Origin: Ceratothoa steindachneri
Lineage: Eukaryota > Arthropoda > Malacostraca > Isopoda > Cymothoidae
Length of the DNA stretch: 64,000 bases
Direction of reading: 5' to 3'
NCBI GenBank assembly: GCA_963969495.1
Contig: OZ018319.1
Location: 203,249,778 to 203,313,777, forward strand
Shown here in pieces: positions 181 through 52,277 of this stretch (position 1 is its first letter; each line of letters starts with the position of its first letter). A program made the translations under genes and the position numbers. The notes beneath the pieces were generated by a model that searched no databases, had not been told where the DNA came from, and worked only from the letters and a program-made list of their open reading frames with translations.

Positions 181-316
181 GCACAAAAAACGCATTATTA
201 TTTACAGCTCTCCTAACGTTGTATTTATGCTGAATTAATACCGACAGATAATTGCTTTCCTCTCTGTCCAAAATACAATGTTAGGAGAGCTGTAAATAAT
301 AGTGCATTTTTTGTGC
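181..316. repeat. Foldback hairpin, 46-bp arms
   Basis: The arms at 181-226 and 271-316 are near-perfect reverse complements. Both contain TTTACAGCTCTCCTAAC in one orientation or the other, and about 44 bp of loop separates them. The right arm abuts the decayed 3' end of WREP copy 1 and supplies its last spurious codons, so the hairpin either inserted there or arose by inverted duplication at a break. It could be a small foldback element. I see no target-site duplication. Confidence 0.75.
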
Positions 317-1690
317 AGCCCCAAATGAATCCCATGCTCCTTTTTCTATGTCGGTCATCGAACTCGAGATGTTTTGGTTTTCCATTAACTTTCTGACCTG
401 TGGCCCATAAAAAAATCCAGCCTTTCTTTTATCATAACTTAAGCCAGAAAATATTGTACAAATGAATTTGAAACAGTCAACCTCCACATTAAGAGCTTTC
501 ATAAATTGTTTCATTAGCACTAGTTTAATATGAAGGGGTGGGAAGATGATTTTCTCTCGCTCAACATGTGGTTGGTGTATAATATTCTTCTCCCCAGTAG
601 TCAAACTTTCTCTAACTGGCCAGAGTTTCTGTTTCCAATGTTTGTTTTTGGCTCGGCTGTCCCATAAACACAGGGGGAAACACGGATATTTTGTATAGCC
701 TCCTTGTTGGCCAAGTAAAAAAAAGGCCATTTTCAGATCCACACATATGATCCATTTGTGTTCATCATATTTGAGTAAATCTAATACAGATCTTATATGT
801 TCGTGCTTCTCTTTTAAATGCACAGAGTGACTAATAAGAATCGCGCCGAAAAAGTTTCCATTGTAGATTAACACACATTTTAGACTTTTCTTTGAACTAT
901 CTATAAAAAGTCTCCAGTCATTTCTTGGATCATACTCTGAAACACCTATCGCGTTTAACAGACCCGCTACGTCACAGCAGTAAACAAAATCTTCTTAGGT
1001 TTTAAAGAATGCCAAGAGATCTCTCTTCCTGTTCCGATAAAAAGTTACATTTGTTTTTCCTGCAACAAATTCTTATCTTTAAGTCTAGAAACTAACATTT
1101 CGGATAACTCTTTTGACAGGCCTAGGTCTCTAACTAAATCATTCAGTTTTAATTGGCTGAAGTTTCCACGTTCTTGGGTCGATGGATGTACAAAGTCTGG
1201 ATCAATGTTAAGTTCATTTCTTACATCAGATTCACGTATATCACTTACATCGTCCAGTGAAGGAAGTTCCTTGAATACAGGTACTGGAATTTCATCTATA
1301 TGAAGCACTAGACGAATTGTAAATCAAGTTTTGAGTAACTTATTTTATGTCGCGTTTTCTTGCTATAACCAGAAGTCTTTGTGAGACAAAAGTAGCAATC
1401 GTTTACATGTTTTTTTGTCTCCCGCGACACCATAGGAATGCCGAATCCTAGTTGTTTTCTTGTACTCTTTGTCCATTGGCGTAGATTTTCGAAACATGGT
1501 TTACAAACATTGTGCGGGACCCACGTTTTATCCTGATCATCTAATTTAATCTTAAATTAAGCCTAGTATGCTCTTTTCACAAAAATACTAATGTTCATTC
1601 TTTGAGGTGGTGCAGTAAAACAACCACATATACCTATAGCAAAACGAGTCAGGGGAATTCAAACATTTCCTTCGTAATGAGGCCATACTA
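281..1690 (-). pseudogene. WREP-family transposon protein, copy 1 (decayed)
   Basis: Reading on the minus strand, the family landmarks appear in order but in several frames. They are an N-terminal segment like VKRAY followed by DDQDKTWVPHNVCKPC (about 1,690-1,520), GIPMVSRETKKHVNDCYFC (about 1,440), a block ending in LVRDLGLSK (about 1,130), then a long open stretch at 281-874. That stretch holds HSVHLKEKHEHI, DLKMAFFLLGQQGGYTKYPC, LCLWDSRAKNKHW, PPLHIKLVLMKQF and AWDSF. The C-terminal third (the HFLHSHLD...GERFHQD region of other copies) is missing, cut at the foldback at 181-316. Frames break near 875-1,045 and near 1,310, so no full protein can be made. The family is present five times here. 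I do not recognise an established name for it. No terminal repeats were found for this copy, whose left end may lie outside the window. Confidence 0.7.
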
Positions 1691-1999
1691 CTGAATGTTA
1701 GTTCATAAAACAAATCTGAAAAACACAAAATTATATTATACACAATTGCTTTATATATCTAGATGTGCATAAAGAGAAGTCTAAATACATAGATAAAATA
1801 AAATAAGAAGAATACCAAACGCCTCCACTTCCGTTTACTTGGTCATAAGATATCCTACTACTATTATTGGTACAAATATGGACCAATCCATAAATAAAAA
1901 AACTTGACGTGATAGAAGAAAACTATTGCCATTTTTAAACCCCGTGATCCCAAATTTCCCAAGAACAGGTTCAAATTTAAGTCAGCATAAAAAAGTTAA

Positions 2000-5500: not shown

Positions 5501-7090
5501 ATAAATATTGCCTCAATGTGTTTTTTTGGGGCGCGTCCCTTTTTCTATTGTTTCACATTATTTCCTTTTTTTCTCATTTTGTTTATAAGGAATGAGTTAA
5601 TATTTGTACAGCAGAAGGATGTAGCGTGATACTCCCTCAGTAGTCCTTGTGAATATAAAAGTCGTCCTCTTAAAGCTTTGATTTTTCTTTAATTACTTAT
5701 CATTGTGCAAACTACGCTAATCTACTCTTAATGAAGTTAGTAATAAGAAGATATAAAAACTTATTACTGAACAACAAACAAGATAATTCTTAAAAAAATT
5801 AATAGGCATCTATAATATTCCCCATGTTAATTGTGATACAGCATGTTTTAATGATAGATGAGATGCTGTTAAATATGTTATGAAAGAATGATTTTTTTTC
5901 TTGGTAAGTGTGGTTGTATGATAGAAAGTTATTAAAAAATACTCATCATGAAAAGATAAAAGAAGTAAATATATTGAGAAAGCCAATTTCATAATTAAAG
6001 TTAAACATTAAAAGTCTTAGTTTATATGAATTTCTAAACAAAATAATTTGCAAAGAAGTAAAAGACTGAGAAGTGATTGTGAATTAAAGGCAGAAATACA
6101 AAAAATAGGCACTATTTTGTCTTTCTCGCAGGAGAACGTTTGTGGACCGGTACTGACCGGTTGTGTTTTGTAACATCCACACACTTTAAGCTTCCCTAAT
6201 TTCATCACTTCGTCTATGAACTTGTCACAAACATTCTTTCGTAGTAGCCATTGTGAGTTTTAGAAAGGTTTTAAGTAATTGTAATAAAAATGGTTTAGAT
6301 TCATAGCATCCGTAAGAAACGGAATAAAGCAACGGGCGAAAATTTGCTCAAGAGTAGAGAAGAGCAGAATATTTTTTATTGATAAATCTATAGCTATTTT
6401 TATGGCTTAAGGTATTATGATTTTTGTTAATAAACTTTGGATTTATCTGGATAGCGTCTCTGATTATTAGATTTTATTGATTAGCGACACCTGCGCAAAA
6501 GAGCACAGCTACCTGAGTTTATTATCCAGGGACTTACCATGGCTTCGATCAAAATTAATAATAATGCTTGATACAACTTCTTTACTAAGATTTTATATTA
6601 TTAAACTTCCCTTTGATCGTAGGTCTGAATTTGACTTAAAAGAAGTGGTGATAGCCTTTATCATGAAACGGTTATTGAAAAGAAAAGGAGACAAATCCAT
6701 TTAAAACCTTTCAGAATCCTTTTTATTGAAGCGACCACAAACTTCACCTCCACCAGAAGGTGCATTTAAGTCATTACTTGTATACCTTTGCTTCAAATTT
6801 TAAACTCTTGGAAGAGAGTCGATTGCCACCGATCTTTGTGCGGAAATCTTTTCCTTGTTCGTTGCCTTGTTAAACGCCATCTTGTGACAGGTACTTAATA
6901 GAATAGGGAGATGTCTAAGTAGGTTTAAAATTGCAAAAAAAAGATTAAAAATATTAGGAGCTATTGCGAATCAATGGGTTATTTGCATTTACGAATAATA
7001 AGTAGGCGAGAACAACGTAGGGCTCGTTGTCGTAGCTTTCTCAACGACTTGAAGAGTTATGGAAATCAAATTCTCATTTTTTTTTATTGA
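5501..7090. other. AT-rich stretch, no supported gene
   Basis: Short ORFs here carry no recognisable motif. The only point of interest is the minus-strand KNVC-type segment at about 6,140-6,235, described with the ORF at 2,979-3,194. Confidence 0.5.
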
Positions 7091-7099
7091 ATAACCTTC

Positions 7100-7380
7100 A
7101 CAGTCGATCCTTTCACCAACAAAAGCAGAACGACTGGGTGGTAAGGTTTGGCCAGGTCGTCTTCGAGGTCTGCTAAGTGTTCACGACCAAGCACCCGCGG
7201 CCTCCGTGATAATGTTCGGAGTTGTGGCTTCGAATGTCGAGAAGATGCCGCCGTCGGGATTCGCGGTCAGTTACAGGCTCACCGTGGCCAATTACAGGTA
7301 TATTTTAGCCATGATAGTCCTTCACTGGGTGCCACAGATCACAAAGAAGGCGGACTATGTTCTTTCAGCAGTGTAATATA
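7100..7380. other. GC-rich island of unknown origin
   Basis: A block of about 280 bp is markedly richer in G and C than its neighbours. It is open in one frame on each strand: plus-strand ATG at 7,148 for 77 codons, and a minus-strand frame containing PRVLGREHLADLEDDLAKPY that ends near 7,085. No domain is recognised. It may be a displaced exon or part of a GC-richer repeat. Confidence 0.3.
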
Positions 7381-7728
7381 GTGCAATTACTTACAGCACA
7401 ATACACACTTGAAGACAAAATAGTAGTTTATCACCATATTTTTCATTATAATCACCATAATTACCAGTTTTAATTACGAGGTGTGTCGGTGTGCATCAAT
7501 AACATTTCATTTTTGAAGCGCAATAGCAACGAGGATCTATCACTTAGAATGTTTGTAAGAAAATATCTGTGCAGAAAGTGGTGAAGATGAAGGGAGTGAA
7601 AGTGTGCGTGAGATATATGTATAACTGCAGATCGTCTTGGAGGCGTTTGAGCAGGCTATCACATACATGTCAGCTGCAGAATGCTGGCACATGTTAGAAC
7701 TGTCATTCTCTTGCGAGGGCATCAATAA

Positions 7729-10013
7729 CATTAGCCAACAAATTTTAACTTTGTCTCTGCTACTTGAGTAAATGTTGTTGTGACTAAATAATTTTGGTGT
7801 GCTGATTCCAAATCTGTGCTCAGATTTGTCCTAGCACATAAGGTTCCTGAGTTATGCAACTAGGATATATGGCTCACTTTGGCACCTTGGATCAATTAAT
7901 GATATAAGTATTACGAGTTTGAGAAGTATGAGACGTTTCTGGGCAAAAGTTTGTAATCGGGGCACCCTATTTGGAATTATGTACGTCCTTTTGCAGACCC
8001 AGACAAGATATGCATTACATATAATAGAGGTAGTACTCACCTAACTATAAATTTCTTCAAAAATGTTTGAGACTCTTGCTCTTGCGTTTGTACGTGGATA
8101 TAGTATCCTGCCGTTGTAGGAACCAGCAGTAGTCGCCCATCATGTTTTCGTTGAAGTAGCCTTGGTACCTGCTTTCCATCATTGCGATATCTCGGTGGAA
8201 CTTTTTTCCATGTTCGTCACTAATATCACCCATATTAGATGGGGAGAAATCTAGATGCGAATGCAAGAAATGCATCTTAAGAGACATCTGACACCCCCAT
8301 TCGTTGATAGGCCTTTAGCATGTTGTCCAGTAGTTCTTCATAGTTTTCAGCCATATGATTTACCAAGGAAGTTCTGCACTACATGGACAAATGAATCCCA
8401 TGCTGCCAGCTCAAGTGGAGTTAGTTTATTTCTGAACTCCCTGTCATGTATCAATTCTCTGATCTCCAGCCCTACAAAAATGCCAGCTTTAAGTTTAGCA
8501 TTGATTTTCTTTGCACCAAATTTCTCTTTGAGATACTGGGATCCATCAGAATCATGGGCCATTGCTTTAACAAAATTCGTGATAAGGCCAGGTTTGATAT
8601 GAAGTGGTGGAAGGTAAATCTTTTGTGGATGTACCAAAGGCATGTGCTTCGCATTATATCGGCCAACTATGTGCTCTTCTCTTTCGGGCCACCGTTTGAC
8701 AATATATTGATTCATGTCGTCAGGGCTGTTCCATAGGCATAAGAAGCACATATTCTTTGGATATCGTAGCTGCAGTCCAAGAAGTAAAGAAATTACCTTT
8801 AGATCACCACAGATATTCCACTTATGATGCGAGTAATGAACACCTTCCAAAATAAATTTCATTAAGTCATATGTCTCTATCATCCCAACAATAAGTGGGG
8901 CAGGAATTGAAGTTTTTTGTTACCATTGTGTAACAACACAGCTTTGAGGCTAGTAGTGCTTGCATTGATGGGTATTCTCCATTCATCAGGTAAATGCTCG
9001 TTTCCTAGCTGATTCATGTGGCCATTAACATCTGTACAGAAACAAGAACCATCTTCTTCTTTATGAAAGGCAGCTAAAGCCTCATGGCGTTTACGGAAAG
9101 TAGATATTTTTGCACCGTCCTCTAGAAGATTCCATTGCTGTAGTCTGAACCCAACAGTTCTACGTAATCCTTTGACCATAACAAACTATTCAATCTTTCT
9201 TGATTTATCAACTGGATCTTCTTTTACTTAGAATCATCCTCATACATTTCATCGTCATTGTTATCCTCCTCTTCAGGCGATGAATCATCTTTATCTGCAC
9301 TAGCTGATGGAGGAACTGGGATTGGAATCCCCATATTATGGGGCACTGATTTTATAGCTGACTTACAATCTAGATATACAATTTTTGACTTTTTCTTATT
9401 TGAGAATCCCGCAATATTTGTCATAAAAAAGTAGCGATCAAAAACATGATTTGTTGGCTCACGCCACACCATTGGTACAGTAAAAGGCTTACCCTTCCGT
9501 TTGCCGTTTAACGACTGTGGGAGACCCGTATAATACACAGTACAAGATTTGTAAGGTGCTAGGAGCTTGTTTTGGTCACCAACTTTACAACCAAAGTAAT
9601 AATTGTATGCAGTTTTGACTCATTTAGCTAGATTTTTCCGCTGGTTGCTTGGATATATCTTCCACAGATATAACAAAAGTTGTCTGGGGCTATTTATAAA
9701 TCTTCACCGATTCATGTTTCAAACTTAGTTTGTATATATCCTGTTATATACTTTTGTACAATCTTATTTCATTAACAAATTAATTGAAAGATAAATCTGA
9801 AAGAAAAATGCAATTAATCACTGTATGTAAATACCGTTTCGACACCACTACTATAATGGCTAAATTTGACAACATGATAAAGCAGGGGTGTAACGCGGGA
9901 ACTAAACACACACAACACATCCTCTCACTACTGTAGCCGAAGCAACACTGCCCATATGTGTAACTAAAGAGTATGTATGTAACTCAGGAACCTTACGTGC
10001 TAAAATAATTCTG
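7729..10013 (-). mobile_element. WREP DNA transposon, copy 2 (probable ends)
   Basis: Inverted repeats flank the copy-2 gene. TAGCACATAAGGTTCCTGAG at about 7,832-7,851 is matched by the complement of 9,982-10,002, and the similarity continues on both sides for about 40 bp. Further left, TAA then CATTAGCCAACAAATTTTAA at 7,726-7,748 resembles the left end of copy 5 (TAA, CACAGGGGAACAATTTTAA), suggesting the true left terminus at 7,729. The matching outer right terminus is not visible and may be lost. Confidence 0.6.
8057..9705 (-). pseudogene. WREP-family transposon protein, copy 2
   Basis: Minus-strand landmarks in order: CYICGRYI (about 9,680); YYFGCKVGDQNKLLAPYKSC (about 9,600); VPMVWREPTNHVFDRYFF (about 9,480); PIPVPPSASADKDD followed by an acidic run (about 9,330-9,225). 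Next come DEWRIPINASTTSLKAVLLHN (about 8,950), then an open stretch 8,883-8,347 with GDLKVISLLLGLQLRYPKN, CFLCLWNSPDD, PPLHIKPGLITNFVKAM and AWDSFVHVVQNFLG. A final open stretch 8,287-8,057 has HFLHSHLDFSPSNMGDISDE, KFHRDIAMMESRYQGYF and MMGDYCW. Three or four frame breaks interrupt it. It is the most complete C-terminal half in the window. There is no intron at the PM/VWREP point, unlike copy 4. Confidence 0.8.
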
Positions 10014-10800
10014 ACAAGGTACTTTCATCATTGACCTATTACACTCCATTAAGCAGTTACACATGTGTTTTGTCTAGTCCGAGTTCAGCCTCTGGGGCTG
10101 ATAGTCTCGGTGTGCTGTAGCATCTAATCCAGTTTCAGAGTTCATCCTGGGACAGTGGGAAGCTATGTGTAGTATCTTACCGAGAAAGAATTAATTCAGG
10201 TGTAGAAAGTGCAGTATATGCTACAGTATATCGTCCATTTAAGATTTATGCTTTATTCCCTTCAGATGAGGTGATATGTCTTGAGGTATTTAGTTTAGTG
10301 GGGGTTTATTTCTAGACAGAGGAGCTACTATGTGCTGCAGCATCTCTTCGAGTCAACAACCATCCGTGTTCAGGTATGGCTCTATGTGCTGTACCATCTC
10401 ATCTAGGAGGGGTTTTATCCCCAGGGAGAAGGCCTTAAGTGTACCCTTTCATACCCCTCCATTCCTCTAAAACCTCATTGTGATCTTATACATAATTATT
10501 ATAGTGTGAAGTTATGCATGTGATTAAGTGTATATATGAGAGAGTAAAATACTAAGGTTGACAGGATAAAATGTGTAGTTGCTAAATAATATCCTGTAGA
10601 AATACAAATAAATCAAAACACCTTTCGTCGCCATATTGGTATTATTAATTAATAATGCTTCTTTCTTATTTAGACTCGAAAATAACAGATCTTTCAAAAT
10701 TTGCAAAGTAAAAGATGAGAAACTTCACCTAATTGAGCCTCATAAGGAAAAATAAGGTTTCCTTCCTATTAGTTTCGATTTATTTTTGGTTAGTTAGTCA
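10014..10800. other. No supported gene
   Basis: Contains loosely repeated phrases such as TATGTGCTG.AGCATCTC around 10,130, 10,330 and 10,390, possibly old diverged repeats. Nothing else could be supported. Confidence 0.4.
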
Positions 10801-11149
10801 GCGCCAATCTTTCCATGATACTGGGAGGCTCTCCGACCGGATAATGAAATTTAAATAAGGTCAGTCTGACAATCGCTGGTCGGTCCGAGAGCGCCAGGGG
10901 CCGGTCCTGTTTTGGGGAGAGGTGCCAGGAAGTATTTTGTTTTTGACACCAAACAGCACTCAGGTGGAATCCTCTGTCACCTCGGGGGAGAGGGATCTGT
11001 TCCGCGTCAGAGGTACGTGGATATAGATATCCGTTTGCAGGATTCCTTGGAGCAGAGAGTGTGTGTGTTGCGCTGTGAAGGCAGGAGAGGAGAGAAAGCA
11101 GTGTTGTGATTGGCTATGTGTGAGGTGAGAGGTGTAAGATCTACCCACC

Positions 11150-11300
11150 CGAAAACGGGGTGAGCACAGCGCATCCACCAATCGGTAGCCAAATCTCTTC
11201 TACGTGCGCTGACGTTTGGGTCTGCTCCTACCGGGATTCCAAATCGAACCCGGTACCGCGACGTTGGGGAGCCAACGCCGTATCTATTTGGCTAGCATGA
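11150..11300 (-). repeat. tRNA-derived SINE head (candidate)
   Basis: Read on the minus strand, TAGCCAAATAG (about 11,286-11,296) fits the pol III A box. GGGTTCGATTTGG about 40 bp downstream fits the B box with one mismatch and sits in a T-arm-like stem (CCGGG ... CCCGG). A hairpin resembling an anticodon arm lies between them. No intact acceptor stem is seen, so a SINE head is likelier than a true tRNA. The GC-rich DNA at 10,800-11,150 may be its body. Confidence 0.45.
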
Positions 11301-12389
11301 GCTTTAGTTTTATTTATCTTCAATTGTTTAAAATTTGTGACCATTTTATATGGGTGTATGCAGGAATAAAAGGTAAAACAGCTCAGATATAAGAGCCTTT
11401 TGTCAATCTAAAAACCCGCTACCTAGTATTTTCGACAGGAACTAAATTTAGATGCGGGTGCTTGCTTTTAATTGTTGTTTTTTTTAAATAAATAAATGGA
11501 AAAGTTGGATTGAATCATGAATATGTGGGGTTGAAAGATGTGACTAATAGAAGGAGTACGAATTAGGTGATGAGTCGTTTTTGGCTCCACTTCTTATCAG
11601 AAGATTGGAGTGCGACGTCCGTCAGTTGGTGGTGATGGTAATGGTCATGATGATGTTAGTGGTGAAGGCCTGGGCGGACGTCGGGTGCCTGGTACGGTTG
11701 CTTAGTTTGTCCTTGGTCTCCCAGCACACGCTCCTTCACAAGAATGGAAGTAAGTGGGCCCCGTGGCTAGGAAAGCCTTGACATCCGGGACCTCTGACTC
11801 TGCTGCAGCCTTCTTCCGCCTTCGCAGCCGTTGGGTTTTGCAACCTCTCTCGCTTCTTCTGGCCTTTTAAGACTTTGTGGTTTAAATTAGGAGCTTTCTT
11901 CTAGCCTTTGCCCATTTAAGGAAACCCACAAGGCAATGGAGCTAGATAACCGTTGGCTCACAAGGAGCTCATCCGCCCTTTGAAATGTCTTTATTTTTTC
12001 TGCTGGGTGTCTAGCTACCTGAAAACTTTGGATCTTTGGAAGTAGCATTCGGGTTAACCTTTTTTTCAAAACTTTGAGCAATTGTCTCTAACGGCTCTCA
12101 AGTTTCGTTAAAACCATAATGTTTGTATGAGTCTTGCATAGATTTAATCTTAGTTTGCTTGATAATAATTCAAGTGGTGAGTAATGATGCGTTGACTGAG
12201 TGTTTCGAGAGTTTTTACAATTAAGTAGGTGGGGATTAGGGATTATTAAAATGAGCAGTTTGTTTATTCGGAGTGTGAAAAATTTGACGAATGAAAAAGT
12301 TTGGTGCGATTGATATGAGTGGGATAATGAAATCTTTCTGGATAGACAGTAGTATTATGGATGTGCAGGTGGCGTAGTAATGTTTAAAA
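11301..12389. other. No supported gene; GC-richer patch at 11,560-11,880
   Basis: The patch at 11,560-11,880 stands out by base composition and contains a GGTGATGGTAATGGTCATGA low-complexity run. Neither strand shows a recognisable domain. Confidence 0.4.
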
Positions 12390-12805
12390 CAGTGGCGGAT
12401 CCAGGATAAAAATTAGGAGTGGGAGGCTAACCTGAATTCCCCTCTCTGAGCAGTCTCAGAAAAGGGCATTGATCATTAATAATGTTTATTTTACACTGCA
12501 TTGATCATAAATAACAGTATCTTACTAACTCTCTCAGAACCGATTTTCCCACCCATCAGAAAATTAGGAATTGTGGTTTATTGTAGTTTTTGGACGTTAG
12601 CTTACTAAGGTATAATACTGTATTTAATAATAATTTTTAAGATTCACCTGTATTTTTGACATGTATTATATAAGGTACATTCTATCGTAACAGATTAAAA
12701 ACGTTTTTTTTATATATTCGATATTAGAATAGCAGAACAGAAGTATGGCTGAAAAAAGAAATATAAACAACCCCCTAGCCCCCCCCCTCCCTGGATTCGC
12801 GCCTG
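12390..12805. mobile_element. hAT-like MITE (416 bp)
   Basis: The left end reads CAGTGGCGGATCCAGG. The right end, complemented, reads CAGGCGCGAATCCAGG. The 8 bp outside are GTTTAAAA on the left and GTGTAAGA on the right, an imperfect 8-bp target duplication (6 of 8). No transposase is encoded. Ends of this type and 8-bp duplications are typical of non-autonomous hAT elements. Confidence 0.6.
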
Positions 12806-14477
12806 GTGTAAGATTATAATTACTATACCTTTAAATACACGATTTATCTCTGGTTAGCATTATAACGGGTGTTCCTTTTAAAACAGCTTTATTACCCCTA
12901 TATCTCTTTTTGTTTTCCAGCAAAAACAAGGCTCAAACACAGTATAGATACGAATATAAGCTTTGAATGTAGTAAGCAACCTTTTATTTATGTATAGAAA
13001 ATGACGATGGAAATTTTTGCACTTACATATCGGAAAGAAAATGCTTTATAACGAAATATCGTGTAAAAGAAGCAATATTTATAGCCTAATTATGCAGGCA
13101 TAATATCGCGTTTTTTCACGCAATCTACGTGAGATACGAAGTTAAGGTCTTTTGGGAAAGTTTGGACTCATTTTCCGTATTGCTTAAGCCTGAATAGTAA
13201 GCGCTAGAGCTACTATCGTAAGTGGGAGAACCAAATCTGCCACAACCAAGGTACCTCAATTTCAGGCTAGAGCAATTCTTGAGAAAGCGCAAAACCTAGA
13301 GGTTTAATTTATGAGCTGCTGTTGTGTATGCACGATGGACTCCTCCTTAATGAGACCCCCCAAGTCCGGCACTTATGGAAAGAACACCGCCTTCGCGATC
13401 TCCCAATCTCACCTATGACGTTTGTATGGGTTATTAAGTTCCCGTTACAAAACCAACCAACCTCTATGATCTAAGTGGGGCAATTCATTTAGATTTTGCA
13501 TGGATTCATGAAAGGGTGACTTTACTGATTAATAAAGATGCAAATAGATTTTATACGTTACTGTGAATTTCAATAAAGGCAATTAAGCTTATATAAAAAT
13601 ATGTATATACCTATGTTGTGTCCTAATTTGATTTCATTAAAAAGGCAAAAGTTATTAAGGCTGCCAGAGGCAAAAGGCTAACCCAATACATTTCTATTTT
13701 CCTTTTCTTTCGTTTCTCTACTTGTGTTTGTGTCCTTCTTTACCTATGTGACTCTTGTTTTGTTACTGTATGATACCCTAACAATTTATTGTTAGAAGAC
13801 CGGGTCTCTTAGTAAATTGAAGGGTTAATGCGCCCAAGATGTAGCACTGAACGGTTGCTCTATTTTATGCTATCTTTATTTATAGCCATGCAGTCATTCC
13901 ACCTCCAGTGGCCGAAATAAAGAAGTATGCAGAGCTCTAAAGAGCTGTATTATGTATGACTGTTTCGAAAATGTCTTCAATCTGTGTCAGAAGCCATTTC
14001 TTCTTGGTGTGAGAATAGAATTTTTCCTTCTGACTCTAAGGTTCTACTCAATATTTTTCCTACTACCCAAATATCTTTAAAGCTTTCTAATTATTTTAAT
14101 CGTCTTACAGTAAATTCTGTCAATTTTGTCTTTGGGTAGCAACTGTTTTTTTCTATTTGCTTGTGTCTAGAATACATAAAAAACACTGTTATTTATTTCA
14201 AACTTTGCTTTAGTGTCGAGGATAATGATATTAATATGAAATTTACCTATTCCCTCTGGAAGGAAGTGGCAAATTTGAACTTTCATTTGCATAAAGTAGA
14301 AACAAAACGACATGATACAAAATTAGCATTTATTTATTCTAGAATTACCTAAGTGAGACAATTAAAATATTTGAAATAAGAAATTTTCCATCATTTACGC
14401 TTATACTGTATATTACTTTCACGAATCAACCCTCAAATATAGTCTCTTGTCAGATTTTCATTATACGATCCTTAATA
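12806..14477. other. No supported gene
   Basis: Short ORFs only, none with motifs. Confidence 0.45.
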
Positions 14478-15760
14478 GGGGCGTTCAAAGTCCAGTAGAT
14501 CCTGATGAAAGCGTTCGCCATTCTCCTCGGAGTACGCTCCCGTGTTCTCCTTAAATTTATCATTATCAACGTCAAGAATATTGACTTTTAAGGACATCCT
14601 ATAACCCCTATGATGGTAGTGTGCCACGGTGTTCCTGCTGTCGCAAAGGTAAAAATAACAAGAAAACTTGGTAAAGCCACCTTGGAGACCGATCAAGAAG
14701 GCCATTATTATGAATTGTCCGATAACCTTCCAACCGTAATCCTAATATTCCTATGCTTAGAAAGATCTTGACACTGCTGTATTCTTCTTTGAGATGGACC
14801 GAGTGAGCAAGAGGAAGAGATGGATACATGTTCCCATTATGAAGCAGCACTGCTTTGAGGCTCCTGGACGAGCTGTCAATGAAGAGACGCCACTCTTTGG
14901 GGTTACCGGTGATTTCGATTGCCTCAAACAGACAAGTCACATTGTGACAAAAACAAAGCTCATCTTGACGTGTAAAAAAGCTTGATAAACACTGGTGACG
15001 CTTTCTCTGGGCTGATATTTGCACACTGTCATCTAACAAATCCACTGTTTGAGTCGAAGTTAGAAGCTCGGCATTGGACTTTGTGAGACCAAGATCTCTG
15101 ACAAGGTCTTTGAGATCTTTTTGGTTGGAGTAATATGGGTTTCTCTCCTCAGTTGCACCTCTGTAATCTGGATCAATGACTTTATCCTCTTCTGAACTGC
15201 TTTTCCTTTCTAAAAACTGCTGCTCTCTTTTCGGAGGAGTGGGTACGGGGATCTCAGAACTGTGTGGCATTGGCGCAATAGATGACTGAAGGCCTGGATT
15301 CATGATAACCGGTGCATTTTTGCCCGCCCAAAGTTTGGAAGGTTTCACCATGCAGAAGAAACAATTGCTGGATTAGTCAGTTGGTTGCCTCCAAATTCAT
15401 GGGATTGCGAAATTCATAGCTCTCTTTTTTTCCTCTGTACCATCCTATAAAAACAAAATGAAAACATAAGTATAAATATGCAAATACTTTTCATTTAATG
15501 TTACTAGAAATGTAAACAAAAATCCAGTATCCAAATAAACAAAACATTATATATATTACCTTCCAGAGGTGATGAAGGTTTGTCTTGATCTCCGACTGGC
15601 ATGCCAAACTATGCCTTGTAACCCTCACACATTTTAGTATATCTCTCTACAGAGTACGTTTTCGCTCTTCTCTCAATAAATTCGCCGCATACATAGCAAA
15701 ATGCGTCTATCAGATGCTTACAACCTCTTGAAGTCATGTGGGACGAATGCTTCTATCAAT
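14478..15760 (-). pseudogene. WREP-family transposon protein, copy 3 (divergent subfamily, intron-bearing)
   Basis: On the minus strand an N-terminal exon holds DAFCYVCGEFIERRAK, YTKMCEGYKA and MPVGDQDKPSSPLEG (about 15,720-15,560). A 115-nt intron (15,559-15,445) follows. Then AMNFAIP, a stop in place of M, IWRQPTD (about 15,410) and a long open stretch 15,351-14,608: PHSSEIPVPTPP, DLKDLVRDLGLTK, KEWRLFIDSSSRSLKAVLLH and HSVHLKEEY. The frame then changes to FLIGLQGGFTKF ... SLKVNILDVDNDKFKENTG and NGERFHQDLLDFERPY near 14,478. About 150 residues between the LGLQ and SLKV blocks are deleted, removing the PPLHIK region. It differs clearly from the other four copies (IWRQP for VWREP, DVDNDKF for HSHLDFF). 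Confidence 0.75.
15445..15559 (-). other. Probable spliceosomal intron in WREP copy 3
   Basis: The donor GAAG/GTAATA at 15,559 and acceptor TTTTTATAG at 15,445 bracket 115 nt of AT-rich DNA. Joining the flanks restores the family reading from GDQDK into the segment before IWRQP. The intron position is about 16 codons upstream of the one in copy 4. Confidence 0.6.
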
Positions 15761-16370
15761 GACGAGTGACGATGTCTGTGCTGTGACGGCTAAAGTTAAA
15801 CTGATCTGTTGAGTAGACATTCTTTGTATAAATATAGTCATCTAAGTTGCCAGAATGTTCTATAAATTCTTCCTACATATAAAAAATTCTCGAAAGTTCT
15901 AGAAAGCTCTACAGTTTATTTTTCATCAAATTAGTGCTGAATCTATGTAAAATGTAAGAGAACTGCCATTGGTGTCCAGGTCGCATCAAAACAAAATATA
16001 AGGGAAATAATAGCTATTACTACTGTATTACTGTTTCTATAACTTTTTAAATACAATATATCATGTTTATACCAAAACTGTGAAAAAACATAACCGTTGA
16101 AAGTTTTGATATACTTTTACTATTTGCATCAAAATAATGTTATTTACCATAAATGAACTAATTTAAAATTTCAATATCCTGGCCATTAAAGTAAGGTTTT
16201 GGGATTAAAATTGACTTTTTTTTATTTAATAGAGCCACAAACAATTGGGAAATAACAATTTTAACGCAAGGACAAGACAAAAGTGATTTTTTTTGCACGG
16301 TGTATTCTTTTAGATGCGTCTCTGTTACCTTACTATGTGGTCTTAAACTGTACGTTCCAATATTCTAAAC
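15761..16370. other. No supported gene
   Basis: AT-rich. The terminal repeats of WREP copy 3 were looked for here and not found. Confidence 0.45.
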
Positions 16371-16852
16371 CAGTGGCTTTTAACCTTTTATAACATAGTG
16401 GCACCCTAATTGTTATCTAGAAGCAGCCATGGCACCAAAATTTAAATTAATTTATGAATATATACTTTATGTGAAAAACAGTTCAGAATTAACCACGATT
16501 GACATTTAACCTAATTTAATCGAAGACATACAAATTTGAAAGTAAATAAATTTTACCATTAAAAGTTTAATGTGCCATTTGAGCTTGATGAGTATCACAT
16601 ACTTATTTAAGTTGACAAGGCAACTCTCATTTCTTCAATCACTGTCCACAATCTTTGTCTTTTCCTTGATTTTATGTTGTTGCAAAATGCAGAGAAGCTA
16701 GTTTTAAAATATTTTCAAGCGTTGTTAGATTTTGTTAGAAATGTTTGAATTGCATATTTTTTGCAATATAGGCATTTAATTTAAAAATGATTCTTGATCG
16801 CTCCCAGCGGACTCTTATTTGGCTCTCGCGGCACACCGGTTGAAAACCACTG
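16371..16852. mobile_element. hAT-like MITE (482 bp) with 8-bp duplication
   Basis: The left end is CAGTGGCTTTTAACC and the right end, complemented, is CAGTGGTTTTCAACC (13 of 15 match). The flanking octamers are TTCTAAAC (16,363-16,370) and TTCTTAAC (16,853-16,860), matching at 7 of 8 positions. The interior is AT-rich and non-coding. Ends and duplication length are those of hAT elements, and the right end (CAGTGGTTTTCAACCGGTG) looks like the widespread Charlie/SPIN type. Confidence 0.85.
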
Positions 16853-16860
16853 TTCTTAAC

Positions 16861-17890
16861 TGACATTGCTGAAAACGTTTACATAGACTTGTAACCGAGG
16901 TAATTTTAAAAATTAAATGCTATAGAAGACTTTTATAGACGGGGAAGATAGATAATGGGAAAATGCCTGGAGTGACCATAAGCTGAGAGGTTAGAAGTGA
17001 GCACTATAGGTGAGCTAGAAAGGTTGGGAACGCAATTTTAAAGACTCCCCTGCTCTTTCTATGTCAATTCGGTAGCCAATTAAAGACAAAATTATAATTT
17101 GCTGCCAAAAAAATGTTTTTAGCAAGAATAAATAGAGTTAATGATATTGTTTGAAGTCGTTATCCGATCTCATTTGGAAATGACAGGAGTGAAATCATTC
17201 TATCCGTATTTTCCAAGTGAGAACGATGAGAGGTTTTGATCCAGACTGTCATTGATGACCTAACACTAATTTGGCCCAAGTCATTGATTAATCCATTGTG
17301 ACGTCAGAGAGATTTGATATTCCCCGGCATATAGACGTCCATCCACCAAGACTTTAAAGTTTATATTTTGATTAGTTATGAGATGAAAGATACGAAAATA
17401 AGCAAAATAAGATAGGAAGACTTTTGTATATATAAGAATATTAACGATAACTGTGAATAGTTGTTTGGTTGGTTGCTCGGTTGGTCATTCCGCCATGCTA
17501 ACACTTAAATAAATCTATCATGCCAGTGGGCGAAAATAAAAAGAAATTACACATTTAATTTTAATATCCACTTCGTTTAGTTCTTTATATCTAAACATTA
17601 AAAAAATATTCTTCAAATTAACAAACTTGCTTTTCTTTAGAAAAACTTTTCTTTATTTTTTATATCTCTTACAAGTTTCAAAAGATTTATTCGAGAAGTA
17701 AATGGTACTTGCTTCACGTTAGCCATTTTTTTTATTTTCTTACTTTTGTCTAGTGTGTATCAAAATTTCCATAAGTTTTTACTGGGATACTTTTTCAAAT
17801 GCTTAAATCTTTATGTGTACAAACGTAAATTTTATGTACATTTAAAATAATGTATTGAAATAAATGTGTCTAATCTCTTTTCAAGACTGA
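16861..17890. other. No supported gene
   Basis: AT-rich sequence without recognisable elements. Confidence 0.45.
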
Positions 17891-18178
17891 TAACACTGGA
17901 GAACACTTATTTTATTGAATGATATGTGACACTTGATTGTAAGTAATTTTTGTGCGCTGAAAACGAATTTCACCTTGGTTTGGCTCTACTAGGTCCTGAT
18001 TCTTGTAAACAGCCCATACGCCATTTTCCATTTTGTTCCAAATTAGGACTAAAAATGAAGTCATGCGTTAACATAGATTTACAATTTTCATGAATACATG
18101 CAGTTCAAACTATTGTAAAATTACATTATAACGATAGAAATTACTTAAAATAAAACAAAACAAAGAGATATGAAGCTT

Positions 18179-20012
18179 TCATTCTGGTAAAAATGTTATT
18201 CTATAGGACTTTCTAGAGTATTTGGTTGTTGATGGCAGGTCTCTTTTCAAGCACCAGTAATAATCAGCCATCATGTGGCAATCCCAGTAGCCTTGATAAC
18301 GTTACTCCATAATTTTAATATATTGGTGGAATCTCTTCTCATGTTCGTCACTTACAGCACCTAAATTACTTGGAAATTGGTCAAGATGACTATTCATAAA
18401 ATGCATTGTTATGCTCATATACAACCTAGCACTTTATAGTTCCTTAAAAGTTTTCTTACGACTTCTTCGTAGTTATTTGCCCTATAATTGACTAAAAATC
18501 TTTTTATCAAGTCCACAAATAAAAACCAGGCATTTCTCTCGCGTTCATTCATGACATTAGGAAAACTGCTGACATTGATTGATGTTCTTATTTGTGGACC
18601 GTCGAAAATTCCAGCTTTGATTTTTCATAACTTAAAATTGAGAATTTTGAAATTATGTGTTGCAAACACTCGCCGTTTGTATCTAAAGCTTTTAAATATT
18701 GTTTCATGAGACCTAGTTTATATGCAGAGGAGGAAATATGATTTTATCTCTGCTCACTAAAGCTGGATTAATTACATTTTTCTTCTCCGACAGTAAGTGA
18801 TGTTCGTGATGGCCAGATTTGTTTGAAATAATGTTCTTCCTTAGCTCTGCTGTCCATAAGCAAAGGAAACAGGGATATTTAGTATACCCCGCTTGTTGCC
18901 CTACCAGAAAATTGACCATTTTTAAGTCAACACATATGATCCAATCGTGCTCCCTATATTTGATGATTTTAAAACAGTTTCTATATGCTCATACTTTTCT
19001 TTTAATGTTGTTGAGTTCCCGATTGGTATCGAGCTGTATAGATTGCCATTATGCAGCAACACACACTTAAGACTCCTTTTGGAACAGTCTAAAGACAAAC
19101 GCCAATCACTTGCATTGTAAGATTGAACCACCATCTCCTTTAACAAACTTGGTATTTCGCAGCAATATACTAAACTATACTCTGTCATAAAATATTTAAG
19201 AAGTTCTTTTTCTCTGTTTCTGTAAAAATAAATGTATGTGTTTGAACTAAGCATGTTTTTCTGTTTAAGTCTTGAAGCTAAAATTTCCGCAGCTTTTTGG
19301 GGGTAAATTTAGACCTCTTACAAGATCATCCAACTCGGCCTAGTTAAACCTTTGCTGATCACTTTCACTTACAACTACGCTTGGGTTGAATTCGGTGTCT
19401 GAATCCTCAGAGTGCATAACAATATTTTCAGAAACATCTTCAATAATTCCTGAGATGGCAGGCTCTTAAATCTTGGAATGGGAATTTTATTTGAATGTAA
19501 TACAGGTCGTATTGCGGTGTCGAAATTTGGGTACTCGATACAATGTTTATTTTTCTTAGCAAAGCCCAAAGTCTGGACAAAATATAAGTAGAAATCCGTC
19601 TTATGGTTAGTAGGCTCTCGCCACACCTGAAATTGAAAATTATTGTGAAGCTTTAACAAAAGCAAATTTTATCAAAGTTGTTTATGTACCTAAATTGCAA
19701 TTACACTTAGGTAATTTACAGTACACAAATGACTAAGTTACGTAGTTTTATGAAATCTTAAACTTACCATTGGAACTCCAAAAGGTATTTTTGACTCCGA
19801 ACTCTTCGTCCAATGTCGCAGTCTTTCAATCCTTTATGTGAAACCCATGATTTATCTTGATCCCCCTGTTTTATGCCAAAATAAGCTAAGTAAGCTCTTT
19901 TCACGAAGTCCTTTATATTTCTTCGTTGATGTGGAAGTGTAAAATTTCCATATATGTAGCAAAATGAATCAGAAGAGTTTTTGCATATGAACTTTCTAGT
20001 ACTTGAGGTCAT
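18179..20012 (-). pseudogene. WREP-family transposon protein, copy 4 (intron-bearing)
   Basis: Minus-strand start at 20,012 (MTSSTRKFICKNSSDS). Landmarks: FCYIYGNFTLPHQRRNI, FVKRAYLAYFGIKQGDQDKS, then after a frameshift RHWTKSSESKIPFGVPM. An intron (19,767-19,627) precedes VWREPTNHKTDFY, FAKKNKH and IEYPNFDTAIRPVLHS. A later frame carries RSLKCVLLHNGNLYSS (about 19,060). Next come FLVGQQAGYTKYPCFLCLW (18,919-18,860) and KIIFPPLHIN (18,720), and the C-terminal part includes RFHQ-like and RYQGYWDCHMMADYYW segments, ending at a TGA at 18,179. The usual FCYICG is changed to FCYIYG. Several frameshifts inactivate it, but its gene structure and terminal repeats are the best guide to the element. 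Confidence 0.8.
19627..19767 (-). other. Spliceosomal intron in WREP copy 4 (141 nt)
   Basis: The exon ends GGAGTTCCAATG, followed by donor GTAAGT at 19,767. The acceptor TTTCAATTTCAG ends at 19,627 and is followed by GTGTGGCGAGAG. Splicing joins GVPM to VWREP in phase 0, exactly reproducing the continuous PMVWREP motif that copies 2 and 5 encode without an intron. Confidence 0.88.
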
Positions 20013-20330
20013 ATTACTTCATTGTTTTGTCAATTTTTAAACGTATTTCAATTCTTTATTTTCAAAATCTGAAATATAAAACCAAACATTAGTTTAAATA
20101 GGTACTAATAGATAATTATAATTATAATGTGCAACTGCAAAAAGACCTAGCAAGTATTGAGAAAATATCCCTTTTAGGAATATGATCAAAGAGAAAGTGT
20201 GTTGAACAAAATCAGGACCCGATAGAGCAAAACGGAGTAAAACTTCGTGCTCAGCGCACCCAATTTACGTATAATTAACTGACAAATCTAAGTCAATAAA
20301 CCAAAAATTGAAATTTTTTCCCCAGTGTAA

Positions 20331-27071: not shown

Positions 27072-28115
27072 ATGTCATCCTTCGAAAAATTCAAGAGTCA
27101 AGGTGAAATGTTAGGTCTTTCGGGCAAAGACCTGCTAAATTACGTACAGGAAGAAGAGAGGAACGAACGGGCAGAGCGAAGGGAATTGGAGATGGAGAAG
27201 AAGAAACTGAAGATGGAGATGGAGGAGAACAAACTGAAGATGTAGATGGAGGAGAACAAACTGAAAATGGGAATGAAGGAGAACAAACTGGAGATGGAGA
27301 TGGAGAAGAACAAAATGGAGGAGAACAAACCGAAGATGGAGATAGAAGAACGTGAACAAATTAGGCAGCATGAGCTAGAAATCAGCCGAAATCAAATGGA
27401 TTCTCAGTCCATCGGTTCCCGGGCTGAAATTCCCCAAACTCCTTCAGTCCACCTTCCCGCTTTCAATGATGGAGAGGACTTTGGGTCATTTTTGGCCCAT
27501 TTTGAGAGAATCTTGCAGATCAATAGATGCGATCTCGAAAATGATGGCATCGCTCGCTTACTTCCCCTCCTAAATGCCAAGTTAAGGGATATCTTCGTAT
27601 CTCTTCCTCTGGAAGCAACTTTGGACTATTCCACGTTAAAGTCCGAATTGCTAGCCGCTGTTCATATTAATAGATAGTTCTACAGCTCCAGATTCAACCA
27701 GTAAAGGATCCGCCCTGGCCAAACATTTCGACAACACGGGTACATCCTCCAAAAAAACCTTCAGTGTTGGCTGGATGCGTGCAAAATTTCCCAGGTCTAC
27801 GAGTCCCTTCTGGACTTCTTCCTTAGAGATCAGCTTTTAGCTGCCGTGGCTCCCAAAATTCGCGCCTTCATTAAGGATAAACGTTGCGCCACTTTCAAGG
27901 AGTGCTTGGAAGAGGCCGATGTTTACGTGGGTAGTCACGATTTATACCCTAAGGATGTTAAAGAGGCTCCCCAATCGCCCAACAAAACTAAATTTTATGG
28001 CCCTAAGACCCCCCTTAAATTGGTTCCAAGATTTACCAAAGCTCCTATTCCCTAGAAGCCAAGAAACTTCCATCCATCGGAACAACGAGACGTTAAGCCC
28101 CTAGTTTCTTCTCCC
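27072..28115 (+). pseudogene. gag of LTR element 1
   Basis: The start ATG at 27,072 gives MSSFEKFKSQGEMLGLSGKD, followed by a highly charged Glu/Lys/Met coiled-coil-like region made of a roughly 10-codon repeat (EENKLKMEM). An in-frame TAG falls at 27,243. The capsid-like part resumes at 27,246-27,677 (DGEDFGSFLAHFERILQINR, RLLPLLNAKLRDIFVSLP, LDYSTLKSELLAA). It then shifts frame and continues at 27,846-28,055 (APKIRAFIKDKRCATFKECL). Element 3 (36,960-37,717, minus) has the same protein. The product would be a nucleocapsid precursor but is interrupted at least three times. Confidence 0.8.
27216..27340 (+). repeat. 30-bp tandem repeat in gag
   Basis: Units of the type ATGGAGGAGAACAAACTGAA recur about every 30 bp and encode the EENKLKM repeat. 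Slippage in this array likely drives length variation of the coiled-coil segment. Confidence 0.7.
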
Positions 28116-28121
28116 CCGGTT

Positions 28122-28850
28122 GTGCCGTACCAAAAGAACCCGATCGTCTGCTACACCTGCGGAGTTCCCGGCCATTACCGCACGAGCTGTCCTCACAACT
28201 CCCGATTCGCAAACTCTGAATCCCACCAAGTACACCAAATCTGGGCCGCCCCTGATCCTCCTCCTTTGCCTCAGAAGACTCGGGAACCTCCCTCGCCCAC
28301 CAAAGACCCGGTCCATCAGGTAAATTTTCTCTTTAATGAGAATAACCCTGGGGGATTGAAGTTCAAGAACGGAACTGTGAACGGTCGCCGAGTATCCACC
28401 CTCGTCCGTGACACCGGGTGCACCTATATTATACTGTCTGAGGACCTACTTCCCTCTGTTGGGCCCGACCACAAGAAATTTGCGGTGGTCCACGACTACC
28501 TTGGCCGGGCGAGTCGTTTCTCAGTAAATCGTTGTCACATCGAGTGTGACTATATGTCCGGTTGGGCCGAAGTGGTAGCGGCCCCAATCTAGTTCTGCTC
28601 CGTTTTATTCGGTCAGAACCCCGTAATTCACGACCATACCGTGGCCCAGCCCGTGATTACCCGTACACAGGCAGCCCTGGGATCCCGTGCACCTGTTCCT
28701 CTGGAAATCCCTATCGACCCGGAGTTCCAAGCCCTCCGGAGCGACAAGTTTTCTCGCGCCCAGAAGGAGTGCGCAACTTCCCCCTCCCCTTTGAGAGAAA
28801 ACTAAAGCCCTCGAGCGTGAGTCCACCCGAGGTAACAAACGAGTCTCGTA
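28122..28850 (+). pseudogene. Zinc knuckle and aspartic protease of LTR element 1
   Basis: CYTCGVPGHYRTSC (28,149-28,190) is a C-x2-C-x4-H-x4-C zinc knuckle, the RNA-binding motif of nucleocapsid. About 75 residues on comes LVRDTGCTYIILSEDLLP, the active-site Asp-Thr-Gly of a retroviral-type protease. The usual following Ala is Cys. A TAG at 28,590-28,592 ends the frame after GWAEVVAAPI, and another frame carries on to about 28,850. The block VGPDHKKFAVVHDYLGRA matches VAPDHYKFATVHYYLGRA in element 2 at about 46,850, which identifies both as one family. Confidence 0.85.
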
Positions 28851-32980: not shown

Positions 32981-33910
32981 ATTGACCACCAAAAAGATCC
33001 TTATCTCGCCTTCATCGACCCTGAAAATGTTTTTGATAAAGTACGACATTCGAAACTTTTCAAGATGCTGGCCAATATCTAAATTGCTTAAAAGAAAAGC
33101 TAATCGTAAGATCTGTTTATTATGACCAAATTACCGCTGTCCGTTTAACAATTAGAACAACCAACTGGATCCGCATCAAATGAGGTGTATGCCAAGGACG
33201 AGTCATGTCGCCCGATCTCTTTAACCTTTACTCTGAGATCATCATCTGAGAAAGAGAAGATCGATCAGAAGGAATCGTTGTCCATGGTGTTAAGATTAAC
33301 AACTTACGATATGCCGGCGACACTGTTCTACTTGCTACATCGAGTGAGGATTCCCAAGAGCTTTTCTATGCTTCTGTAGTCTCCAGTGAACGCCTTGGTC
33401 TCAAAGTTAAAAGCAATAAGACGAAGGTGATGGTCATTTCAAAGTCAGAGGTCCCTCCAGCTTGTCAACTGCGGCATGGAAAGACACCAATCGCACAGGT
33501 TAACTCCTTTACCCTCTTTGAATGGACCGTAAGGTCTCCTAGGGTACCTTCTTTCCTTGTTGTTACTCCTTTAATTACCGTGGAGCTGTAGTATCATTTT
33601 ACGCCCTAAACAAGAAAGAGATCAGAAGAAGAATAGGATTCGCCAAAGATGCATTTTTACGGCTAAGAACAATTTTTGTATATAGAAAACTGTCAATTAG
33701 AGTCAAGATTCGCGTTTTGAAAGCCTATTTTCTGGTAAACTTTCCCTTATGGCCGTGGACACTCACGGCCGAGGCCCAACGTAACATCAAACAGCAGATT
33801 TTTGGTCCTACTAAAGGATGCTGCGGATCTCATATGTAGACAAGGTCAGGGACGAGGAGGTTTTGACTCGGCTCGGTGTGGAGAGGGAGCTCCTGAGTGT
33901 CGTAGAATGA
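32574..33910 (+). pseudogene. RTE-type LINE reverse transcriptase (decayed)
   Basis: Segments of a non-LTR reverse transcriptase occur in order: KVSGPDEVYIEMIRALDKEG, LLKIIYETGQL, then after frameshifts MSHILKILLKIILQRI, IPQNQFGFMKDTGTRNAIF. Then come AFIDPENVFDKV, NNLRYAGDTVLLAT, SVNALVSKLKA-like and finally [20 protein letters not shown] near 33,900. The catalytic YADD box is YAGD (33,310-33,321), one catalytic Asp changed to Gly. A (GA)n expansion interrupts it at 32,938. The endonuclease domain is absent, as in 5'-truncated LINE copies. The sequence stops at a (TA)n tract. The missing tail resembles the fragment at 38,881-39,095. Confidence 0.85.
32938..32978. repeat. (GA)n microsatellite inside LINE ORF
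   Basis: The run replaces a short Glu-Arg stretch before AIDHQKD, so it grew inside the reverse transcriptase coding sequence. Confidence 0.85.
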
Positions 33911-49678: not shown

Positions 49679-49956
49679 TATTAATGAAAATATTGTTGAT
49701 TTAGAAAGAATCGGTATTTATGACTCTAAGGAAATGATATTATTGGAATATAATTATTGAAATTTTATTAATACTATTGATGAAATAACTTTGAGGCAAC
49801 ATTTTGGCTGTTAATATATCTTTTGATAATATTAATCAAATTTTATTTAAGATATTAATTAAATTATATTAATGAATTAATTTTGCTGATATTAATAATT
49901 AATATTTACATATATGGTAAATGAAATCAATATTATTGAAATATTGTTAATCATAA

Positions 49957-52274
49957 CACAGGGGAACAATTTTAATCACATTTTCTGGTGACTTAGATTT
50001 ATCTGACAATTTTAATTCTTTTTTTTCATGCTGATTTCAAATATATCATGCTATAGTTATTCTGTAATTTCTATTTTCTCGTTTTCCCGAAAACTACCCT
50101 CCAAACTGACAGATAAGGTGCTTCTAGAAAGCAAATACTTCACAGTACATAGTAGTAAGATAGTATAAGTGTTATTGTGCAAAATATTGACATTATTGTT
50201 TCTTTTTTTAGGTCTCATGTTAGAGTGATGGCTTCGTCAAGAGGAAATTGCGTTAATGATCCAGACACCTTCTTCTACATGTGTGGCTGTTACATGCTAG
50301 TTTGTCAAAGGCGCAATATATCAAACTTTGTGATCCGCACTTATAAGGCATATTTTGATGTTCCCCTTAGCGATCGAGATAAGGAATGGGCCCCACATGC
50401 TGTTAGCCATAGTTGTGTGGAACATCTTCGTGGTTTGACGAAAGGAAAGAGATATGGTCTTCCTTTAGGAGTCCCTATGGTGTGGCGAGAGCCAAAAGAT
50501 CATGTATCGGACTGCTATTTCTTTCTGGTGAATACTAAAGGGATTGGCAAGAAAAATAGGCACAAGATCGACTACCCCAACTTTTCCTCGGCGATCCGGC
50601 AGTACCTCATTCTGAGTTTTTACCAGTTCCGATTTTCAGTGGATATGCTTCCTCCGAGGATGTAAATGATGTATCTGATATGGAGGTACACGGAATGGAT
50701 TCAGTCTGTAGATTCATTATCAGATGCTGAACAGTCATTAGCTCCTCACTGTTTCTATCAAGAGGATTTGAATGACTTGATACGTGATTTGGCGCTCTCC
50801 AAGAAAGCTGCAGAACCTTTAGCCTCCAGGTTGAGTGAAATATCTATGCTTGACAGGTCGGTACGGGTATCATATTACCGAACAAGGGAGAGTACATTTG
50901 TTAAGTATTTCTCTGAGGACAAACGATTTGTATACTGCCACGATGTTCCTGGTCTGTTTACCGAGTTGGGATTTGGCACCTATACCCTTGCTGAGTGGAG
51001 ACTGTTTTTGGATAGCTCCAAGCGTAACCTCAATTGTGTCCTTTTGCATAATGGCAATGACTTTAGTGCAGTTCCTCTCGGTCACTCTGTCCATCTGCGA
51101 GAAACTCACGATGACATAAGAATGGTCATGGATTTACTTAAGTATCATGAACACAATTGGATCATATTTGTGGACCTTAAGATGGTCAACTTTCTCCTTG
51201 GCCAGCAGAAGGGATATACAAAATTTCCATTCTATATCTGTATGTGGGACAGTCGAGCCCGTGACAAACACTGGTACAAAAAAGATTAGCCAGTTCGGGA
51301 AACTTTGGAAGTAGGAATGACAAACATTGTTAATGAGCCATTCGTAAGTCAAGGGGAAGATCGTTTTCACTCCACTTCATCTCAAACTGGGGTTGATGAA
51401 GCAGTATATCAGGCGTTGAGCACTGACAATGATTGTTTTCAGTACATAGTAACAGCGTTTCCTGCTTTGTCATACGAAAAAATAAAAGCATGACTATTTG
51501 ATGGTCCCCAAATCTGAAGACTTCTCATTGATTCCAGATTCGTGAACACCATGAATGTAAAAGAGAAGGCAGACTGGCTCTCATTTTCTGTCGTTGTTCG
51601 TAACTTCTTGGGAAGCAAAAAAGCGCATAACTACCAGGATATGGTTACTAATATGCTTTTAGCATATCGTGATCTGGGATGCAACATGAATGTGAAGCTG
51701 CATTTCCTAAATAGTCACCTCGACCAATTCCCAAAGAATCAGGGAGCCGTGAGCGACGAACAAGAGGAACGCTTCCATTAGGATTTGATGACGATGGAAG
51801 AGCGCTACCAAGGTCACTTGGATAGACACATGATGGCGGACTACTGCTGGACAATTAGAAGAGATCAGCCAGAAAAAACTTAAAAAAGAAAGAGTTACAA
51901 ACGCAAATTTTTGCCCCGATTGAAATCAAGAAGAGGTCCTCCAGCCTGATGAACGGTCATTAATAAATTAGCATCTATTTGATTACAGCATTTGGAATCC
52001 TAATGTGTAATTCAAGTTTATTCTCATATGCAATAAAATGTTTGTGCAAAAAAACCTGCTTTACTATAAATAACGCAAAAGGATGATTCAAAACTACTTC
52101 AGGGCATTATGATAGGCGAGATAAAATGAAAATTATTGTATAATATTAGTTATTGATATTACGAAAAATCTGTAGCATTTAGAGAGAATCTGATTTCAGA
52201 TGCGAATTCAGTATGCTCAAATTAGGTAGGATAATGTACTTTTGTCAATTCACTAAATACATTGTTCCCCAGTG
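49957..52274 (+). mobile_element. WREP DNA transposon, copy 5, complete ends
   Basis: The left terminus is CACAGGGGAACAAT and the right terminus, complemented, is CACTGGGGAACAAT (13 of 14 match). TAA lies outside both (49,954-49,956 and 52,275-52,277). Subterminal similarity to copy 4 (TGACTTAGATTT at 49,989 and, inverted, at 20,285) shows the same family. Length 2,318 bp. Confidence 0.87.
50228..51949 (+). pseudogene. WREP-family transposon protein, copy 5 (best preserved)
   Basis: The ATG at 50,228 follows a splice-acceptor-like TTTTTTTAG at 50,211. The frame to TGA at 51,947 spans about 574 codons. Landmarks: FFYMCGCYMLVCQRRNISNF (Cys pair), PLSDRDKEWAPH, GVPMVWREPKDHVSDCYFF, KNRHKIDYPNFSSAIR, EDLNDLIRDLALSKKAA, FVYCHDV, AEWRLFLDSSKRNLNCVLLH, HSVHLRETHDDI, FVDLKMVNFLLGQQKGYTKF, MWDSRARDKHW, VVRNFLGSKKAHNY, LHFLNSHLDQFPKN, ERFH, RYQGHLDRHMMADYCW. 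Defects: two compensating shifts near 50,600 and 50,710, and in-frame stops at 51,287 (for Trp), 51,491, 51,515 (for Arg) and 51,779 (for Gln). It is probably the transposase of the element. The fold is not assigned. Confidence 0.82.
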
Positions 52275-52277
52275 TAA

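Follow-up and report, generated by a model that had tools for sequence, protein, structure and literature searches.

What kind of element carries the genes for proteins with the conserved block PMVWREP (hereafter the WREP family) is the question raised by a 64,000-nucleotide stretch of the genome of the isopod Ceratothoa steindachneri (contig OZ018319.1, positions 203,249,778 to 203,313,777; hereafter the window). A search with 10 relatives (tblastn, E 1e-6) detected five copies of the gene in the window and none beyond these. The blocks PMVWREP, LLHNGN, GYTKYPCFLCLW, PPLHIK and GERFHQD, noticed in an earlier sequence-only reading, are present and conserved. That reading assigned the family to a DNA transposon with terminal inverted repeats (TIRs), took the proteins for transposases, and suggested that the family might be undescribed. 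We find that the WREP family is carried by a mobile TIR element, with the flanking TAA lying outside the element. In all likelihood, these elements belong to the Chapaev3 group of cut-and-paste DNA transposons, with the mechanism proposed below, an assignment that was made by comparison with published descriptions.

Termini, target-site duplications and empty sites

Two of the five genes, copies 4 and 5 (Table 1), lie in opposite orientations within sharply bounded elements. Copy 4 begins with CACTGGAGAACA at position 17894, and CACTGGGGAAAA, on the opposite strand, ends at 20327; copy 5 begins with CACAGGGGAACAATTTT at 49957, and its reverse-strand terminus CACTGGGGAACAATGTA ends at 52274. 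The inverted CACTGG(A/G)GAA termini reported for copy 4, the inverted termini reported for copy 5, and TAA on the outer sides of both are all borne out by the sequence. With up to one mismatch allowed, TAACACTGGRGAA occurs at four sites in the window, which are exactly the four ends of copies 4 and 5 (0.27 sites expected by chance; none of 100 shuffles gave four). The two elements also have the subterminal block TGACTTAGATTT in common, as previously suggested; it is located 33-44 bp inward, measured from the right end in copy 4 and from the left end in copy 5. A scan for CACTGGGGAACA around copies 1-3 (positions 1-4000, 6500-11500 and 12500-17500), tolerating three mismatches at most, revealed no plausible terminus; the few similar sites lie inside the copies or lack an outer TWA (TAA or TTA). 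Judging from the sequence, copies 1-3 look like fragments, so the window holds two bounded elements, not five. Both of these are dead and decayed, and a search confined to open reading frames (ORFs) of at least 120 amino acids found no further ORF inside either.

The same 3.93-Gb genome was searched for other insertions. A protein search for members of the copy-5 family returned 105,369 first-look candidates, 75 of which were scored, yielding 76 matched stretches; 41 insertions were examined, namely, copy 5 and 40 others retrieved as loci or as end pairs. When an end was accepted with up to 8 mismatches in an ungapped comparison of 25 terminal bases, both ends were recognised in 33 of the 41 insertions, and the remaining 8, in which an end was missing, were excluded (in one of these, L054, TTA is seen by eye on either side). 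An exact 3-bp duplication is present in 25 of the 33 two-ended insertions (17 TAA/TAA, 5 TTA/TTA, and one each of CTA, TAG and ATA), a match at 2 bp in one, and a match at 4 bp or 5 bp in none. Shuffling of the right ends among the copies gave a mean of 12.0 matches and never reached 25 in 10,000 trials. TWA is found on both sides in 22 of the 33 copies, with the middle base agreeing in all 22, and the duplication is preceded by A in 32 and followed by T in 28. The duplication is thus TWA, not the fixed TAA of the sequence-only reading. Two insertions, L087/088 and L093/094, have common flanks and therefore represent one duplicated insertion, which brings the independent count to 24 of 32. The members of this pair (G000:C3:76080288 and C3:76095401) lie about 15 kb from each other and are oppositely oriented, with flanks that are 99-100% identical; they probably reflect a recent inverted segmental duplication.

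One of the copy-5-family insertions, L105/L106, sits in a repeat; once its two flanks are joined, they align to uninterrupted copies of that repeat with no gap at the junction. The uninterrupted copy in L041, where the alignment covers 26 bp of the left flank, reads GATAATAAAT, and the one in the window reads GATCATAAAT; each contains one triplet, not two. Because exact 3-bp duplications are combined with a single triplet in the uninterrupted repeats, the element is mobile and does not include the TAA, in agreement with the original proposal. The same repeat type (L041:3247-3420, L105/L106 and window positions 12390-12642) harbors a copy-4-family insertion (L041) and a copy-5-family insertion (L105), at points of the repeat that are separated by about 26 bp. 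Genome-wide, ATWACACTGGGGAACA occurs 1,372 times, and the reversed control is absent. The ten pairwise comparisons among five copy-5-family loci all give 90-92% identity, and 75 of the 76 matched stretches contain an in-frame stop, so the family looks inactive in this genome.

To sample the copy-4 family, the genome was searched with a 301-bp piece of copy 4, which gave 858 first-look candidates; all 40 that were scored matched, and the 40 loci fetched comprise copy 4 and 39 relatives. In their alignments to copy 4, position 1 recurs as the start and position 2434 as the stop. In several loci, the stretch 18-113 of copy 4 also aligns, inverted, to the opposite end at about 76-78% identity; the inverted repeats are therefore longer and imperfect. 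The left end was recognised in 32 of the 40 loci and the right end in 26, with CACTGGGGAACA as the majority sequence and mutations in individual copies, so that, where preserved, the termini are present in other copies of both families. The duplication signal is weaker here (7 of the 21 two-ended copies, 6 of those 7 with TWA; 7 was reached in 13 of 10,000 shuffle trials), and this family is the older-looking of the two. In seven members (L020, L032, L034, L035, L040, L045 and L046), inspection by eye suggests two extra end bases (TTCACTGG or CCAGTGAA) inside what looks like a TWA triplet, which may reflect a variant end or a shift in the cleavage site.

The transposase and its predicted relationship to RAG1

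The predicted structure of the protein contains an RNase H-like fold carrying D265, D319, and either E514 or E517, and the best structural matches of this core are RAG1, HzTransib and BbRAGL, with 10-17% identity in the alignments. These predictions support a RAG1/Transib-type transposase fold, unlike that of a host enzyme, and agree with the earlier identification of the proteins as transposases; the protein would appear to be distant kin of RAG1, the enzyme that shuffles antibody genes. Residues C338/C341, L386-H387 and H495/H500, which correspond to the C(2)C, LH and H(4)H motifs, are kept in 119-120 of the 120 aligned relatives. The median length of the relatives is 564 residues; the intron of copy 4 follows residue ~81, and among the relatives the commonest number of residues before the same point is 84-85.

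Pfam searches yielded no family for the read-through copy, no family at the cut-off in the family searches, and no domain among the 120 relatives listed. A sequence search of solved structures with the read-through copy, the 120-member profile and the N-terminal domain gave no significant match, and neither ZAD nor RAG1 entries appeared. No viral-protein structure matched at E 0.001, and no relatives were found in viral contigs or prokaryote genome contigs. One family member, P0023, is filed under a Pseudomonadota metagenome genome and is most likely animal contamination. The Pfam RAG1 profile matches 21 places in the isopod genome, and the four that were opened (L119-L122) belong to a different repeated family, with stretches of up to ~2.4 kb in common and a protein that matches the end of the profile; our guess is that this family is Transib-like. 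The WREP protein has no convincing tblastn match in these four loci (best E 0.42). Since the opened RAG1-profile loci represent another family, the relation of the WREP core to RAG1 is, within these tests, visible by structure only.

For the N-terminal ~75-105 residues (P0123; P0045 residues 12-105), the nearest solved folds to the predicted structure are ZAD domains, which are found in many insect gene regulators. The predicted N-terminal zinc domain thus somewhat resembles ZAD, and the corresponding Pfam matches by sequence are weak and sub-threshold. The ZAD-like region overlaps a similarly weak match to the N-terminal zinc region of RAG1 (RAG1_imp_bd; 3 of 41 members, residues 43-112, best E 0.011, below the cut-off). 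A zinc domain at this position, Chapa, is described in PMC4411706 as common to Chapaev, Chapaev3, TransibSU and RAG1, consistent with the location of the three weak matches; in that description, Chapa is a novel type of complex zinc finger, whereas here the nearest solved folds are ZAD. The whole words ZAD and RAG1 did not occur together in the full texts searched, a set that mostly leaves out subscription papers and so does not show the link to be unpublished. If the ZAD reading is true, which we hold to be somewhat less likely than not, the domain would have moved between transposases and gene regulators, and ZAD-type dimerisation could have a role in pairing transposon ends; the resemblance, if confirmed, would tie together insect regulators, transposases and RAG1.

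Probable assignment to Chapaev3 and the alternatives

The elements were filed as Chapaev3 because the TWA duplication between A and T, the CAC...GTG ends, the C(2)C, LH and H(4)H motifs, the element length, the protein size and the intron of copy 4 match the available descriptions. As described in PMC4079192, Chapaev elements have CAC/GTG ends, the TWA duplications of Chapaev3 always lie between A and T, and a silkworm Chapaev3 element encodes the three motifs. The full-length Merrow and Garfield elements covered there span 2,289-2,455 bp and encode transposases of 554-562 amino acids in two exons, with 77-78 amino acids in exon 1, whereas most other Chapaev3 elements are apparently single-exon. 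Our elements are like Merrow/Garfield in the ends, the A/T-flanked duplication, the motifs and the length, copy 4 (2,434 bp), whose intron lies near the place where exon 1 of Merrow/Garfield ends, resembling the two-exon form and intronless copy 5 (2,318 bp) resembling most other Chapaev3; they belong to another family and host, and the comparison is between descriptions. A shorter Chapaev3 element, Conan (1,865 bp; 461 amino acids), is known from the tenrec (PMC4079192). Every Chapaev3 hallmark tested, that is, CAC...GTG termini, 3-bp TWA duplication, A before and T after it, the three motifs and the predicted DDE core, was observed, apart from the Chapa domain with its sub-cut-off matches.

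In PMC12730594, C(2)C and H(3-4)H form a signature common to EnSpm, Mirage, Chapaev, Transib and RAG1, and Chapaev3 is ranked as a sublineage within Chapaev; PMC4411706 includes Chapaev3 in the Transib superfamily and traces its first description to Repbase Reports of 2007-2008. The elements are accordingly placed in Chapaev3 within Chapaev, in the CMC or 'CMCT' clade, or the 'Transib superfamily' of Kapitonov and Koonin. The CMC affinity that the sequence-only reading saw in the CACTG ends and 3-bp duplication pointed in the right direction; the PIF/Harbinger affinity and the undescribed status are not supported. The idea of an undescribed superfamily is to be dropped, given that the group has been known since 2007-2008 and its published description (PMC4079192) covers the features found here. 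As far as the accessible text of PMC4411706 and PMC12730594 goes, both argue from motifs, domain make-up and trees, to which the present analysis adds structure-prediction evidence for a RAG1/Transib core in the Chapaev3 group.

A relationship to PIF/Harbinger, where TWA duplications are also the rule (PMC4482050), or a new superfamily, as the lack of a Pfam family at the cut-off might suggest, appears highly unlikely. Harbinger elements, as described in the same source, average ~4.1 kb, mostly contain a second ORF (with a Myb/SANT domain in most autonomous elements) and usually begin with A or G, but copies 4 and 5 are only 2.3-2.4 kb long, have one recognisable gene and begin with CAC; furthermore, their predicted fold is RAG1/Transib-like. 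We consider it extremely improbable that these are Transib elements in the strict sense or RAG-like elements. The CAC ends and the structural matches of the core to RAG1, HzTransib and BbRAGL speak for such an origin; however, Transib and RAG elements generate 5-bp target-site duplications, as opposed to 3 bp here, and the RAG1 profile finds another family in the places opened. Ends, size and duplication length led us to set aside both PIF/Harbinger and strict Transib.

Relatives of ~560 residues are annotated as uncharacterized proteins in bat, frog, snake, worm lizard and Hydra, as could be expected of host genes lying in repeats or of a domesticated transposase. We give this explanation next to no credence: the genes are multicopy in this genome, lie within sharp TIR and duplication boundaries, and nearly always carry in-frame stops. 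Under the Chapaev3 assignment, 'uncharacterized' or 'hypothetical' proteins with WREP, LLHNGN and GERFHQD blocks, from Hydra to bats, would be Chapaev3-type transposases, to be masked as transposons.

The observed ends, duplication, target preference and empty sites, along with the predicted fold and conserved residues, frame a mechanism in which we infer recognition, chemistry, cleavage intermediates and dimerisation. One gene, with or without a single intron, would encode a ~560-residue transposase with a predicted RAG1/Transib-type RNase H core (D, D, E) and an N-terminal Chapa domain that probably binds the ends or dimerises. The transposase would recognise the CAC...GTG ends and subterminal motifs, and a dimer may pair the two ends, by analogy with Transib and RAG1. 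The element would then be excised, probably by double-strand cleavage as in Transib and RAG, and its 3' ends joined across a 3-bp stagger at A|TWA|T, the stagger becoming the TWA duplication.

Features of the window

Table 1 Features of the WREP-family elements in the window, with strand and basis
Feature	Position	Strand	Basis
Copy 4, whole Chapaev3-type element, decayed, 2434 bp	17894..20327	-	ends; TAA; alignment limits at 1 and 2434 in many of the 40 loci
TAA target-site duplications of copy 4	left 17891..17893, right 20328..20330	.	read in sequence
Copy 4 transposase pseudogene, frameshifts and stops	18182..20012	-	tblastn with 10 relatives; three-frame translation
Copy 4 intron, GT...AG, 141 bp, between GVPM and VWREP	19627..19767	-	inferred from sequence; near the end of Merrow/Garfield exon 1
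Copy 5, whole Chapaev3-type element, decayed, no intron seen, 2318 bp	49957..52274	+	relatives end at identical bases
TAA target-site duplications of copy 5	left 49954..49956, right 52275..52277	.	read in sequence
Copy 5 transposase frame, 551 codons, 5 in-frame stops	50228..51880	+	
Copy 1, transposase gene fragment, no termini found	308..1731	-	tblastn; terminus scan
Copy 2, decayed transposase gene, no termini found	8066..9697	-	tblastn; terminus scan
Copy 3, most diverged transposase gene, no termini found	14385..15734	-	tblastn; terminus scan
Uninterrupted repeat copy, paralogous empty site of the L105/L106 insertion	12390..12642	+	flank alignment

Several other elements in the window were noticed by eye. 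A 648-codon frame at 33739-35685 (+) contains reverse-transcriptase and GIY-YIG-like blocks and appears Penelope-like. Gypsy-like fragments, with reverse transcriptase, integrase, gag and protease-like frames, are located at 44006-46000 (-) and 27246-28592 (+), and fragments of a Mariner transposase at 4328-5169 (-).
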